Source: an uncultured Alphaproteobacteria bacterium (GTDB taxonomy: Bacteria > Pseudomonadota > Alphaproteobacteria > UBA7985 > CAJQQZ01). Taken from it: 53,794 nt of DNA. This document shows positions 47,317 to 53,794 of this stretch, in pieces. The position numbers and the translations under genes were made by a program. The notes under the pieces were generated by a model that did no database searches, was not told where the DNA came from, and saw only the letters and a program-made list of their open reading frames with translations. Position 1 is the stretch's first letter; every line of letters starts with the position of its first letter. The stretch spans positions 1-53,794 of the forward strand of contig CAJQQZ010000044.1 in assembly GCA_905480575.1 (NCBI GenBank), read 5' to 3'.

Positions 47317-47509
47317 CTGTTTGTTCCTAGGTACTTACCGCCAAAGTGAAAGAAGGACTCTATTCGTAAGACAATATCAAGTTTTAAATAAATAATAAGA
47401 TAACAAAATCATAAACTTGAACAGCTTAATTAAAACAAGACATTAACTAAATTGCTGTGCTTTCGAATTTCGGTCTTTTCGCAACTTTGTTACTAATTTG
47501 GGGACAAAT

Positions 47510-50500
47510 ATGCTTTTTGCGACTCGCGTCAGGATCAAGAAAGGCTTTCTAACTGCGAATCGGGATAGAAATTCCGATAAAATTTTAGAAAGTTCGACTG
47601 ACATTAGTTTTTCGGATCAGACAACTGGTTCTAACACTCTTGGATTAAAACCAAGAATACCTTCGACTGTTGATTCGTGGATCGAAAGCGATCCGGCGAA
47701 CCCGCGCTCAAAATCTGATCACATTACAAATGAAGATGAGTTTTCAGCCCCTCAGGTTGAAAAAAACCGCCGGAAGATGACCCACTGTCCCCAGGGTTCA
47801 TCTCCGGCGGCCTTTTTACGAGATGAAAATATGAAAGCAGAGCGACTCTTTTCCCGTCAAGATGCTTGGCGAGTCCTGACTTCCTTTTGGATGGTTCTTA
47901 TCGCCCAAATGATAGGGTTAAGTCGGAAGACAAGAGACAGGAGCGACGAAGTCAGGACAGGGTTCAAGGGATTAGTGCGCCTCGATTTCGCAAGAAGAGC
48001 TCTTCGCCCGCTCTCCGTGGCGATTATGGTCGTCGCCTTTTCATCGATGACTTTTGAGCAAGCTGATGCGCAAAGCTGTCCCAGTGGGCGAACCTGGACC
48101 AATGTTTCGCATTTGGCGACGGTTACGAACTCGCCAACGACGCATGAGTGGGTGCCACCCTTCTTAAATGGGACGACTTGGGAAATCGCAATGGATTGGG
48201 ATTCGAACAATGATCCCGGGACATCAATCCTTTTTGATTTTGGAAGCCTTCAACTCTACGAACCATCCATTCACGTCGATGACATAGATGCTGATCCCGC
48301 GGCCTGGACAGACGTGGTTACCACTCCTTGGCCGATCACGGTACCGGGTGGAACGCTCGCCTATACAGTGTCAGGTCAGACTGCGACGGGTGTAGATGAT
48401 GTTAATATTAAATACCTTGATGCTTCTGACACCAGCACCACCAATACCTCCTTTATTGTGAACTATGATCCCGGTGCCTCTCCCGGGAACCCTACGAGTC
48501 AGCATATTTTCGTAGATGTCTGGCATTGTCATCCTGAAGAAGCTGATTTGAGGACCTATTTCACTATTGGTACTCTAATTTCAGCTCCCAATCAGTCCTT
48601 TACAGTAAAAATTGTCAATGACGGTCCAGACACTGCTCATAACGTTGGCAATGTAATTAATCTACCTAGCTGTGTTACAAACGTCACCGCGAGTGGCCCG
48701 GGAGCTCAAACAGTTTCTGGCACCACCGTAACAACGACCGGCATAGGTTCGATCAACAACGGCTCAACGACGACGATCAGTTTATCGGCCGACTTTTCCG
48801 GTTGTTCCGTTGGATCATCTCAAACCTTTAATACAGAGGTCACAGCTTCAGATGAGTATGACCCTGATTCCACCGTTAACAATGGCGTTATCGGTGAAGA
48901 TGATGATGATACCGAAGTTGAGACTATCAACAACCCCGCACCTGATATCGACATTTTCAAATTTGTCGATAATCCAGCACCGGACCAGAATTCCGCAATC
49001 TACTTTCAGATTTTTGCGACCAACAACGGAACCGCTGACACCACAGCATTGGAAGTCGCCGAAGTCCTGCCACCTGGTTTTACCTATACCTCTCACAGCA
49101 TCAGTGGGCCCGGGACCTTTAACTCCACCACGGAAATTTGGGACATTGGGGTTCTGACGGTCGGCTCAAATTCAGTTTTGACTATTAATGGTATCGCATC
49201 CGGAGCAGTCGGCAGCACGGAATGTAACAATGTGACTGTTTCGACAGTGTCTCCTGCTGACAGCAATCCAAATAACAACTCCGACAGCGATTGTTTTACG
49301 ATCCAAACACCAACAACGCCGGCGATTTCCAAGTCTGTCGTTGGTGGGCCAGTCGCCCATGGCGATACGCTGACCTACACGATTACTATTACTGATCCGT
49401 TGAACGATGAGCCTCTGGATGTCGACGACGTTTTACCAACCGGCTTGACCTACGTGGCTGGTAGTGCTGGTGGCACTTGTGGTGGTGCGGCTTCACCGAC
49501 TGTTTCTGGACAAACGTTAAGCTGGACTTTCACCGGTGTTTCCGCCTCCGGTTGTACGGTAATTTATGAAGCAGAAACGGATGCAAACTTTACGCATGCT
49601 CCAGGGACTACTGTTGTAGACGGACTTTGTAACAATGCGACCGTGAGCTGGAACTCTGGCTCGAACTCAACCTCAACGTCTAACTGTGTCGATGTTGATG
49701 TGCCGGATGTTGGTCTGGCTAAGTCTGCCTCTCCGCCACCTTTTACAACGATCAATACTGGTTCGACCGTGAACTATACAGTTACAGTTACTAACCCAAA
49801 TGGATCGGGTGTTTCTAACTTCACAGTTACGGACACTCTTGGTAACTACATCTCTTTTGTGAACGGTTCGACAGGCGGCACGTGCGGAGCAGGTGCTCCA
49901 ACGGTCACAGGGCAAGTCGTGGAATGGACTGTAACTTCAACAGCCGCGAGCTGTACAATCACCTACCAGGGCCTCTTTACCCATCCAGGTGCCCCTGGCT
50001 CAACAGCCTTTTGTCAGACATCGACTAGCAACTCTGTGGCAATGACCTACACTGGTGGTTCACAAAGTCCCGTTAGCCTCTGTCACAATTTGCACGTGCC
50101 GACTGCAACTATCACCAAAACCGGTCCTAGCCTAATCGTGGAAGGTGCAACCGGCTCTTACACCTTGTTCCTCAACAATGAAGCCGGGCATTCCATAACA
50201 AGTTTCAACATTCAAGATTTGCTCTCAGAAGACCTGCAGTTTGTTCCAGGTTCAGCCGGCGGTACTTGTGGCGCGGGCCAACCAACGGTAACTGGTTTTC
50301 CTGAAGTTCTTGATTGGACTGGTGTTACAGTTGCTGCCGGTTCGAACTGTACAATAACTTATCAGATCACGGCGCCAGCATCCGGAGGTCAGCCGGGCAG
50401 TGAAACTACCTGTCCTCAATTCTCGCTGACAGCAGGTCGTAACTTGGCTTCTATCACTTGGGTTAATGGGTCAACTTATACCAACTCAGATGATCACTGT

Positions 50501-53410
50501 GCCGTTTTGCGCGTACCTGGAATGGGGTTAACGAAAGCTTCCAACTTTGCTTTGGTTTCTAACGATTCCACTGTAACATTCACAATCACCGCCACTAGCG
50601 ACGCTGGTTCTGGGATCACATCGTTTGATCTAGAAGACATTCTTCCGGCAGGGTGGGGTTACGTTGCGGGGTCTGAGCAGGGAACTTGTGGAGCCGGAGA
50701 ACCGACCACATCAGGTGGCGGCAGCGGTCCTACGGACCTGGACTGGACTGGAATCTCCATTACAGAAGGCAGTTCTTGCACAATCCAATACAAAGTTCAT
50801 ATCAACATGACGGGAACACCCGGATCAACGCTTTTCTGCCCGAATGCATCCGTCACAAATGATGCCACAGCCACCTTTACCGGAGGGGTGGCCACCGCAG
50901 AACGCTGTGTCATTGTCACCTTCCCATCGCCGGATATACAAAAGACAGCAACCGCAGGAAACATTACAGTTGGAGACACTGCTACCTACACGATTACGAT
51001 TTCTAATCCACAAGGCACAGGCTTTACGTCATTTACTGTAGACGACGTGTTACCTGGGCAGTTCAGTTATTTGCCGTTCTCGACTTCTGGAACATGTGCG
51101 TCAGGTGAGCCAACAGTTTCAGGCTCCACACTGACTTTCGGTCCTTTCTCTCTACCTGCAGCTGCAGGTAGTTCCTGTGAAATAATCTTTTTGGCAGAAG
51201 AAGTTCAGGGCACAGGTTATTCGTTCTGCAATACAAGTAATCCTGCTAACTCTGTTACTTTGAACTATGGCTCCTATACGGACTCCGATACCCATTGTGT
51301 AACTGTTTCGGTTCCGTCAGCATCGGCTTGGGTAGAGAAAAACGTTACCCCAGCAACTGCGGTGCCCGGACAGACTGTGACTTATGAAATTGAAATTCAC
51401 AACAATTCCTACGGCACCTTCTTTACCGATCCGGGTACTTACTCTCTGTTAGAGATCGAAGATATTCTGGACCCGTTGTTTTTAAACGTGAATGCTTTTA
51501 ACAACGGCTGTCCTGATCCTTTCGGTGCCGGACCTTCGGTTGTTGGCAACACAGTAACTTTTGCGACGGACTTGGGAACTGGTCAAAGTTGTACTATTCA
51601 AATCACAGCTCAATTGTCCAACTCAGCACCGATTACAAACTGTGCTGGTGGCGGAGGTATCGACAACACCGTGACACTCAATAGCCATGCCGCTTGGCCT
51701 GTTGAACAACACTCATACGGTTTCCTTTGGGATGACATAGAATGTCTAAACACCGATGGCTTAGGTGATCCGCAACTAATAAAGGCAGTGTCTCCTGGAG
51801 CTATATCCGTTGGCGACACTTTGACCTATACTTTGCTTCTAGATAACTCTCAAAACGCTTCTAGTGAAAACATTACGGTTACAGACAACTTGCCATCTGG
51901 GTACAATTTTGTGGCAGGTTCATCTGCTGGCTCCTGTTCGGCTGGTCAGCCTGGTGTTAGTGGTACGCCTGAAGTACTGACTTGGGGTCCAATCACTGTC
52001 AATTCCAGCAGTAGCTGTACTATTTCATATCAAGTTGTCGCCAATCCTGCAGTACCAGCTAACGCGACTTGGAGCTGTCCTGATGCGAATATTACTAACA
52101 GTGCAACAATCACTTGGACAGGTGGCAGCGACACAGATGCGCGTTGTGTACCGGTTTCTGCACCACCTGACCCACCAACCATAACCAAAACAGCTTCGAC
52201 TTCCTCTGTAACAGACGGTGATACCTGGACTTACACATTGACGATCACGAATCCAGCCGCAGGCGACTCAGGCAACATGACAATTGTGGATGATCTCCCA
52301 GCTAACCTAAACGTAGTTGGAAACTATAGTGGTACTTGTGGTGCGGGATCTCCTGCGCTTTCGGGATCCCCTTCTTCGACTGGTTGGAACTTGACATGGA
52401 ATAACGTCACAGTCACCCCGGGAACCAGCTGTACGATTATCTACGACGTAACAACACTTAACTGGCCTGCGGGTTCAAACATCACTTGTCCTAATGCATC
52501 AGGAACAAACACTGCGACGGTAACCAATTCTATAGGTGCCAGTGACCAGGATGATGCTTGTGTGTCCGTAACAGGGCCGCCAATTATCGATATCAATAAG
52601 ATCGCGGACATGAATGAATACGACGTTGGCGATACGGTTACTTATACTCTGACAATTGATGCTACCGGAGTGAGCTGCGGCCAAGGTGGCGGCGGCGGCC
52701 TCGGCGGCCTCGAAGGTCAGCTTGATCAAGGCGGTGGTGGCCTCGGCGGTACTGGTTGTACCTTCGACGTCAACGCATGTACGGCAGCCGGGAACAATGT
52801 ATTGCAGTGTAACCAAGCCGGCTCCGCCGGAAGTTACACTGCTTGTATGACTGCGCTCAACAACCATGATATTTGCAAATGGTGGTTGCCTCAGATCGCC
52901 GTATCAGTGTCTGATACACTCCCTAACGGTTTCACTTATGTTAACCCATCAACCAGTGGCACCTGTGGTTTCCCCGAACCGACTGTTGCGGGTCAAAGTC
53001 TCTTCTGGACCAGCCAAACGATCTTCGGTGGCCTCTCTTGCACGCTAATTTATGAAGCTGTTGCTAACCCACCAAGCCCAGGTTGGACCTGTCCTGACTC
53101 TCAAGGTACGAATAGCGCCAGTATCTCGTGGACATACAACGGCGTTCCGGGGTCAGACCAGGCAGATGTTTGTGTTCATGTAAATCCAAACAATCCCGTT
53201 CCAACGATCACAAAGTCGGTCACTCCTGCGACTATTAATGACAATGGGACCGCGACTTATACCGTTGTAATAGAAAACCCAGTTGGTACCGGTATTACGT
53301 CATTTGAGGTTCAGGACACCATAGCACCTTGGGCAACCTATGTTGGTGGTTCGACTTCTTTGACTTGTACAGGATTAGCAGAACCCACCGGAACCACGTT
53401 GCTCACTTAG
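47510..53410 (+). CDS. giant secreted DUF11-repeat protein, broken by an in-frame TAG
   Basis: A reading frame of 1966 codons from ATG 47510 (good GGGGA ahead). Alternative starts are ATG 47831 and GTG 47975; the latter would place a canonical signal peptide (RRALRPLSVAIMVVAFSSM, cleavage after EQADAQ) at the N-terminus. An N-terminal domain of ~270 residues follows, then about eleven to twelve DUF11/TIGR01451-type beta-sandwich repeats of ~130-140 residues, beginning with ITKT/LAKS-like strands near nucleotides 49325, 49714, 50110, 50527, 50936, 51332, 51776, 52182, 52592 and 53207. Most have a four-Cys pattern (GTCGAG..P, SSCTI.Y, C-P/N, C-V). It resembles bacterial surface or adhesin proteins with disulfide-linked domains. 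TAG at 53408-53410 replaces a conserved Trp codon; the frame then continues in register. Confidence 0.85.
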   Translation: MLFATRVRIKKGFLTANRDRNSDKILESSTDISFSDQTTGSNTLGLKPRIPSTVDSWIESDPANPRSKSDHITNEDEFSAPQVEKNRRKMTHCPQGSSPAAFLRDENMKAERLFSRQDAWRVLTSFWMVLIAQMIGLSRKTRDRSDEVRTGFKGLVRLDFARRALRPLSVAIMVVAFSSMTFEQADAQSCPSGRTWTNVSHLATVTNSPTTHEWVPPFLNGTTWEIAMDWDSNNDPGTSILFDFGSLQLYEPSIHVDDIDADPAAWTDVVTTPWPITVPGGTLAYTVSGQTATGVDDVNIKYLDASDTSTTNTSFIVNYDPGASPGNPTSQHIFVDVWHCHPEEADLRTYFTIGTLISAPNQSFTVKIVNDGPDTAHNVGNVINLPSCVTNVTASGPGAQTVSGTTVTTTGIGSINNGSTTTISLSADFSGCSVGSSQTFNTEVTASDEYDPDSTVNNGVIGEDDDDTEVETINNPAPDIDIFKFVDNPAPDQNSAIYFQIFATNNGTADTTALEVAEVLPPGFTYTSHSISGPGTFNSTTEIWDIGVLTVGSNSVLTINGIASGAVGSTECNNVTVSTVSPADSNPNNNSDSDCFTIQTPTTPAISKSVVGGPVAHGDTLTYTITITDPLNDEPLDVDDVLPTGLTYVAGSAGGTCGGAASPTVSGQTLSWTFTGVSASGCTVIYEAETDANFTHAPGTTVVDGLCNNATVSWNSGSNSTSTSNCVDVDVPDVGLAKSASPPPFTTINTGSTVNYTVTVTNPNGSGVSNFTVTDTLGNYISFVNGSTGGTCGAGAPTVTGQVVEWTVTSTAASCTITYQGLFTHPGAPGSTAFCQTSTSNSVAMTYTGGSQSPVSLCHNLHVPTATITKTGPSLIVEGATGSYTLFLNNEAGHSITSFNIQDLLSEDLQFVPGSAGGTCGAGQPTVTGFPEVLDWTGVTVAAGSNCTITYQITAPASGGQPGSETTCPQFSLTAGRNLASITWVNGSTYTNSDDHCAVLRVPGMGLTKASNFALVSNDSTVTFTITATSDAGSGITSFDLEDILPAGWGYVAGSEQGTCGAGEPTTSGGGSGPTDLDWTGISITEGSSCTIQYKVHINMTGTPGSTLFCPNASVTNDATATFTGGVATAERCVIVTFPSPDIQKTATAGNITVGDTATYTITISNPQGTGFTSFTVDDVLPGQFSYLPFSTSGTCASGEPTVSGSTLTFGPFSLPAAAGSSCEIIFLAEEVQGTGYSFCNTSNPANSVTLNYGSYTDSDTHCVTVSVPSASAWVEKNVTPATAVPGQTVTYEIEIHNNSYGTFFTDPGTYSLLEIEDILDPLFLNVNAFNNGCPDPFGAGPSVVGNTVTFATDLGTGQSCTIQITAQLSNSAPITNCAGGGGIDNTVTLNSHAAWPVEQHSYGFLWDDIECLNTDGLGDPQLIKAVSPGAISVGDTLTYTLLLDNSQNASSENITVTDNLPSGYNFVAGSSAGSCSAGQPGVSGTPEVLTWGPITVNSSSSCTISYQVVANPAVPANATWSCPDANITNSATITWTGGSDTDARCVPVSAPPDPPTITKTASTSSVTDGDTWTYTLTITNPAAGDSGNMTIVDDLPANLNVVGNYSGTCGAGSPALSGSPSSTGWNLTWNNVTVTPGTSCTIIYDVTTLNWPAGSNITCPNASGTNTATVTNSIGASDQDDACVSVTGPPIIDINKIADMNEYDVGDTVTYTLTIDATGVSCGQGGGGGLGGLEGQLDQGGGGLGGTGCTFDVNACTAAGNNVLQCNQAGSAGSYTACMTALNNHDICKWWLPQIAVSVSDTLPNGFTYVNPSTSGTCGFPEPTVAGQSLFWTSQTIFGGLSCTLIYEAVANPPSPGWTCPDSQGTNSASISWTYNGVPGSDQADVCVHVNPNNPVPTITKSVTPATINDNGTATYTVVIENPVGTGITSFEVQDTIAPWATYVGGSTSLTCTGLAEPTGTTLLT
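47761..47817 (+). terminator. intrinsic terminator/attenuator inside the giant-gene 5-prime region
   Basis: CCGCCGG-A-AGATGA-CCC pairs with GGG-T-TCATCT-CCGGCGG (16 bp with two single-base bulges), preceded by AAAAAA and followed by CC-TTTTT. The stem lies downstream of the sigma-54 candidate and just before ATG 47831, in frame with the long ORF. Confidence 0.75.
52664..52890 (+). other. Gly/Cys-rich insert within one DUF11 repeat
   Basis: Within repeat 9 an extra ~70 codons separate TYTLTIDATG from VSVSDTLPNG. They encode GQGGGGGLGGLEGQ- and GGGGLGGTGC-like sequence, followed by four or five Cys (NACTAAGNNVLQC, YTACMTALNNHDIC). The repeat spacing here is about 615 bases against about 410 elsewhere. 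Confidence 0.7.
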
Positions 53411-53665
53411 GCCGGTATTACGGTGGCGGAAGGATCGACTTGTACCTTTACCTATGAGACAACACTGACCTCAGTTGGTGGTAAAGCCGGGGATACAGTT
53501 ACCTGTCCAAACGACGATATGACCAATACAGTCCAGTTGTTTGAGAATGGACAAACAACAGTTCTGGGCAGTGACGACGCTTGTGTGAACATCACAATTC
53601 CCGCTGTTGGCGATCCGACATTCTCTAAGTCAGTCTCGCCAAGTTCGATAAATAGTCGGGCCTGA
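53411..53665 (+). pseudogene. in-frame continuation of the giant protein past the TAG
   Basis: The same frame continues for 84 codons (AGITVAEGSTCTFTYETTL, then a further four-Cys set, then FSKSVSPSSIN, the start of the next repeat). It stops at TGA 53663 where sequence changes character. It has no start signal of its own, so it is the remnant of the giant gene downstream of the nonsense codon. Confidence 0.8.
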
Positions 53666-53719
53666 AGAAGTTGATAAGCCATTGAATTAATGGGATTCCC
53701 TTATTGTTTTAGATATGGG

Positions 53720-53765
53720 AAAACACCAGGAATGAATTTTGATAGTAACAAAATCTGGTGTTTTT
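53720..53765 (+). terminator. hairpin with U-tail before putative transposase
   Basis: AAAACACCAG (53720-53729) and CTGGTGTTTT (53755-53764) form a 10-bp stem ending in TTTTT, directly upstream of the ATG at 53767. It is consistent with an IS element blocking readthrough transcription or hiding its ribosome binding site. Confidence 0.6.
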
Positions 53766-53766
53766 G

Positions 53767-53794
53767 ATGCGACCTTCCAAGCAATCACGGCGCA
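53767..53794 (+). CDS. start of a putative transposase ORF, cut by window edge
   Basis: ATG 53767 opens a frame beginning MRPSKQSRR that runs off the right edge. Only nine codons are visible. The location just inside a presumed IS end, behind a protective hairpin, suggests the transposase; the fragment itself is too short to prove it. Confidence 0.35.

Follow-up and report, generated by a model that had tools for sequence, protein, structure and literature searches.

The analysed window, 53 794 nucleotides long, is an entire contig (C44) of a draft genome of 4.03 Mb in 189 contigs. Near its right end the plus-strand frame is open from 47498 to 53407 (1970 codons), meets a TAG at 53408-53410 and is open again from 53411 to 53662, with a second stop near 53663. 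The nearly 2000 residues in one long open frame announced by the initial annotation are thus present, 1970 of them ahead of the TAG. The gene end that it placed at 53665 has to be moved, since an insertion sequence starts at 53655 and the last 140 bases of the window lie outside the gene. From the ATG at 47831, the product has by inspection a secretory-looking N-terminus and, behind it, a tandem stalk of twelve domains: two DUF11-like domains (D1, amino acids 234-370; D2, amino acids 371-495) and ten consecutive four-cysteine domains (D3-D12, amino acids 496-1924, 49316-53602). The features are listed in Table 1.

Table 1. Features of the giant repeat gene and its surroundings (window coordinates)
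Feature	Position	Strand	Basis
Open in-frame leader, ATG 47510, GGGGA upstream	47510..47830	+	Sequence; the G001 ortholog (second species) is open here too
Terminator-like element: very stable hairpin with a U run behind it	47767..47817	+	-35.1 kcal/mol, z -5.8
Secretory-looking N-terminus from ATG 47831, with a hydrophobic stretch towards its end, ...FEQADAQ before SC	47831..48073	+	Sequence inspection
N-terminal domain of ~150 residues, candidate tip	48074..48529	+	No Pfam match; 69% identity in G001
D1 and D2, DUF11-like, without the four-Cys signature; D2 has C3 and C4 only	48530..49315	+	
D3, four-Cys CLIPPER-type	49316..49705	+	Alignment
D4, four-Cys CLIPPER-type	49706..50101	+	Alignment
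D5, four-Cys CLIPPER-type	50102..50518	+	Alignment
D6, four-Cys CLIPPER-type	50519..50926	+	Alignment
D7, four-Cys CLIPPER-type	50927..51316	+	Alignment
D8, four-Cys CLIPPER-type, most divergent	51317..51766	+	Alignment
D9, four-Cys CLIPPER-type	51767..52168	+	Alignment, AlphaFold model
D10, four-Cys CLIPPER-type	52169..52582	+	Alignment, AlphaFold model
D11, four-Cys CLIPPER-type, with Gly-rich insertion holding six extra Cys (~52676-52878)	52583..53194	+	
D12, four-Cys, in-frame TAG 53408-53410	53195..53602	+	Profile 88.9 bits across one TAG
Beginning of a further repeat, cut by the insertion sequence	53603..53654	+	Sequence
Left end of insertion sequence (DUF772/DDE transposase)	53655..53794	+	100% identity to C36:9855-9994

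The region upstream of ATG 47831 was compared with that of the ortholog in G001, a metagenome-assembled uncultured alphaproteobacterium which is the second species of the genus (contig CAJQQJ010000055.1). An 86-nt block (47761-47846) that contains the hairpin just ahead of ATG 47831 is identical in the two species, and the coding sequence right after it diverges widely. The genome has a single copy of the block, besides an 18-base match at chance level, and neither leader nor hairpin has a match in Rfam. Neither species has a stop codon in the frame through the block. Differences ahead of ATG 47831 number 8, 12 and 20 at codon positions 1, 2 and 3, respectively, a bias which hints at coding in this stretch. 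The leader that starts at ATG 47510 may possibly be a long N-terminal extension or a leader peptide; it is also possible that the signal region is very long and has an attenuator. The upstream region of a second giant gene (of the type on contig C74; L012, L037) is conserved too, and its N-terminus is unusually long, with more than 100 residues preceding the hydrophobic signal stretch. The G001 ortholog has an N-terminus comparable to that of the window gene and ending in ARAQ. For the N-terminal domain that follows, the fold predicted by AlphaFold from two sequences was not usable (pLDDT 38.8), and no homology is claimed to the N-domains of the giant proteins of contigs C74 and C123 (hhalign probability 4%).

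The repeats proposed by the initial annotation are real. Over the whole protein, the Pfam family DUF11 (PF01345) matches 11 stretches (E = 8.7e-90; 297 bits against a cut-off of 24.6), and each of the nine uninterrupted repeats (D3-D11) matches it at E up to 0.01. DUF7933 and DUF7927 are likewise above their cut-offs for the whole protein; DUF7933 (PF25564) reaches 55.6 bits (cut-off 26.5) and matches six of the nine repeats at E up to 0.01, DUF11 being the better family. NCBIfam TIGR04226, an isopeptide-forming domain of the RrgB type, scores 151 bits. A 2025 survey renamed DUF11 'CLIPPER' and described it as an isopeptide domain of fibrillar-adhesin stalks that is present in Pseudomonadota, often with disulfides; a Lys/Asp/Asn isopeptide triad is reported there for DUF11 and its relatives, and a crystal structure from Acinetobacter (9IFR) shows a Lys-Asn isopeptide bond together with a disulfide (PMC12617251). 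In the alignment of D3-D11, where mean column identity is 34%, ten columns are invariant; they include K6, D40 and N111 (numbering of the repeat at 51767). Judged from the alignment, these three residues correspond to the CLIPPER triad, kept in all nine repeats and overlooked by the initial annotation; in an alignment with 9IFR, the Lys and the Asp fall on their counterparts.

A profile of the repeats gave a single significant match among solved structures, again 9IFR (E = 3.1e-5). The structure of two consecutive repeats, as the initial annotation had suggested, was predicted with AlphaFold for D9-D10 (input: seven sequences of tandem pairs from the window genome and a related genome), and the CnaA-like beta-sandwich fold of CLIPPER was recovered (pLDDT 87.4). 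In VIA-align, the model superposes on 9IFR with Z = 13.2 (2.2 Å over 115 residues) and on the pilins EbpB, PilA and BcpA with Z = 12-14. Integrin rows ranked above these were not taken as relatives (rmsd near 9 Å, common Ig-like fold), and a search of viral structures returned generic beta-sandwich matches.

In D3-D12, cysteines occupy four aligned columns (C1-C4) in 10/10, 10/10, 9/10 and 9/10 domains, whereas in 2000 residue shuffles the best cysteine column was filled in at most 5/10 domains. The claim that each repeat carries Cys at nearly the same four places is therefore well founded; the count of about twelve four-cysteine repeats has to be corrected to ten, because D1 and D2 lack C1 and C2. 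Pairwise identity among repeats is only 21-44% and Tandem Repeats Finder (TRF) detected no tandem repeat at the DNA level, so the pattern is a conserved one, not the product of fresh duplication, and has outlasted strong divergence of the repeats. The glycine-rich insertion of D11 has no equivalent in any other repeat.

The pairing of the cysteines was approached by counting their presence in 71 DUF11-type domains from the studied loci, which are not independent of each other. Of these, 24 have both C1 and C2, 43 have neither and 4 have one of the two; for C3 and C4 the corresponding numbers were 17, 5 and 0. Discordance between C2 and C3 was found in 16 of 58 domains. The first pair occurs alone in the DUF7933-like repeats of L049, and the second pair alone in D2 and in the repeats of the C74 gene. 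Since C1/C2 and C3/C4 come and go as separate pairs, two intradomain disulfides (C1-C2 and C3-C4) are likely and constitute the simplest reading; a C3-C4 bond would also fit the secondary structure of the D9-D10 model, where these two residues flank the last beta-hairpin. Taken with the secretory-looking N-terminus and the CLIPPER fold of the model, this co-occurrence agrees with the initial proposal of an extracellular rod with two disulfides per repeat, and we infer such a rod here. Neither the regular four-cysteine signature nor the present member was found in the literature searched.

When 11 genomes of the order were scanned with the four-cysteine profile, strong or four-cysteine matches were found in this genus only: in the window gene, in one domain on contig C123 and in the second giant gene of G001. 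The DUF11 domains of the other members of the order are ordinary ones and mostly lack these cysteines, and evenly drawn samples, covering 385 genomes from the class and 398 from the phylum, yielded weaker, generic matches only. A scan with a single protein as query found no relative; one plasmid match came from Pelagibacterium (25% identity). The G001 ortholog has the same two neighbour genes and is 58% identical over 493 aa. It follows that the gene is not confined to one strain; such confinement would have spoken against the reading by the initial annotation's own criterion. Immediately behind D2 the ortholog stops matching, and foreign sequence resembling an IS21-type element's end leads to the end of its contig.

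Other giant repeat genes of the genome meet mobile elements as well. A giant gene of DUF7507 (CLIPPER_2) repeats is split by an IS66-like element between contigs C123 (L173 1-141) and C80 (L174 6780-6948): C123 ends in ...AGGAAACG followed by the element, and C80 resumes after the element with AGGAAACG..., which corresponds to an 8-base target duplication and makes the two look like neighbouring contigs. Another giant DUF11 gene, on C74 (L012 444-4226; 1260 aa open), also stops at this IS66-like end. The corresponding gene of G001 (L037) stays open for 1902 aa, as far as the end of the contig, and has four-cysteine repeats in its second half.

The window gene itself is interrupted twice, by the TAG within D12, which may be real or a sequencing error, and by the insertion sequence, inside which the contig ends. 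A complete copy of the latter on C36 encodes the DUF772/DDE transposase. No further piece of the gene was found in the assembly of the window's genome, and no adhesive domain, anchor or sorting domain or secretion partner was identified for it; head, anchor and secretion system were not found because the 3′ end is missing. We looked for this end beyond the other flanks of the insertion sequence and rejected them, as they carry no DUF11 and no target duplication matching the window side. One belongs to an oxidoreductase gene, the other to a region that has a 5-aminolevulinate synthase-like gene and encodes a small, secreted-looking protein; no copy of this protein was found in the second species. 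The oxidoreductase gene (FAD-dependent) is split by the same insertion sequence (L011 9820-11345 and L035 15540-15695; contigs C36 and C18), and the 7 bases TATCCTG seem to be duplicated there. The C36 copy has a right flank that fits neither, which suggests recombination between insertion-sequence copies or misassembly. C36 also has a weak match, below cut-off, to PapC_C, the C-terminal domain of fimbrial ushers (L011 13318-13854), possibly a chaperone-usher gene cut by the contig end.

We take the locus, with a probability of about 0.78, to be the 5′ portion of a fibrillar-adhesin gene. The secreted product would have a CLIPPER stalk cross-linked by Lys-Asn bonds and by two disulfides per domain, and would have lost its anchor. 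After export, each domain would close its Lys-Asn isopeptide bond with Asp as the catalyst, and oxidation outside the cytoplasm would add the disulfides C1-C2 and C3-C4; together, these cross-links would let the rod withstand pulling, heat and proteases. A candidate for the tip is the N-terminal domain, and a C-terminal anchor would once have been encoded in the missing part. With the TAG and then the insertion sequence, the present gene would give at most an unanchored fragment.

Two alternatives concern the chemistry of the stalk. It could be held by disulfides only, with Lys, Asp and Asn kept for folding and forming no isopeptide bond. The 2025 survey does note DUF11 domains that lack the bond (PMC12617251), but the triad does not vary across nine repeats that have diverged elsewhere, and TIGR04226 matches strongly, so that we consider this version unlikely. 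Even less probable is that the cysteines join neighbouring fibres or bind metal instead of forming two intradomain disulfides: although the six extra cysteines in the D11 insertion could be read in this way, C1/C2 and C3/C4 vary as separate pairs, as intradomain disulfides would, and such disulfides are common in Pseudomonadota, being found in 58.2% of isopeptide domains (PMC12617251).

A more serious contender, if still improbable on balance, is that we see a pseudogene in decay, without any function in the lineage today. It draws on the TAG and the insertion sequence in the window gene, on the insertion-sequence-like end of its G001 ortholog and on the IS66-like interruptions of the two other giant CLIPPER-type genes of the genome. 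Against it, the 1970 codons are otherwise open and the Cys and triad positions are intact, which would make any loss recent; moreover, ends of this kind are more readily seen because insertion sequences break draft assemblies. A further idea, which we regard as a speculation with little weight, is that triply cross-linked stalk domains, with one isopeptide bond and two disulfides in each of ten successive units, form a genus-specific class, and that insertion sequences repeatedly switch off the genes of these giant fibres; the rods would then be a surface trait that the lineage can dispense with or turn on and off, for instance as a target of phages or grazers.

If the locus does encode a cross-linked adhesin stalk, it extends CLIPPER stalks to an alphaproteobacterial lineage in an unusually regular form with three possible covalent locks per domain. 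The fibre is not of an undescribed kind, as had been proposed, because DUF11 is CLIPPER, already known from the stalks of fibrillar adhesins (PMC12617251); what was seen here in one genus only is the regular two-disulfide form. The general picture, published in 2025, is unchanged. Because related domains carry only the first or only the second cysteine pair, they offer a natural test series for the sharing of load between disulfides and isopeptide bonds in a stalk.

Among known systems, the adhesin of Acinetobacter silvestris from which 9IFR was solved (B9T28_05395; PMC12617251) resembles the window gene in profile match, fold, Lys/Asp/Asn triad, tandem stalk in a Gram-negative bacterium and presence of a disulfide. 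It differs in having one tetrapeptide disulfide in the last strand, whereas the window repeats (~19% identity to it) would have two, at other positions, in ten units. DUF7933 (PF25564), too, is a family of the isopeptide type with prevalent disulfides (PMC12617251), and in the DUF7933-like repeats of L049 the positions of C1 and C2 are the same; yet these repeats lack C3 and C4, and DUF11 scores higher for the window repeat that is shown in full. The Gram-positive isopeptide pilins (EbpB, PilA and BcpA) share the beta-sandwich fold and are likewise isopeptide-stabilised rods, but they are assembled from subunits by sortase, in contrast to one long Gram-negative polypeptide, and their identity to the repeats is 14-22%.
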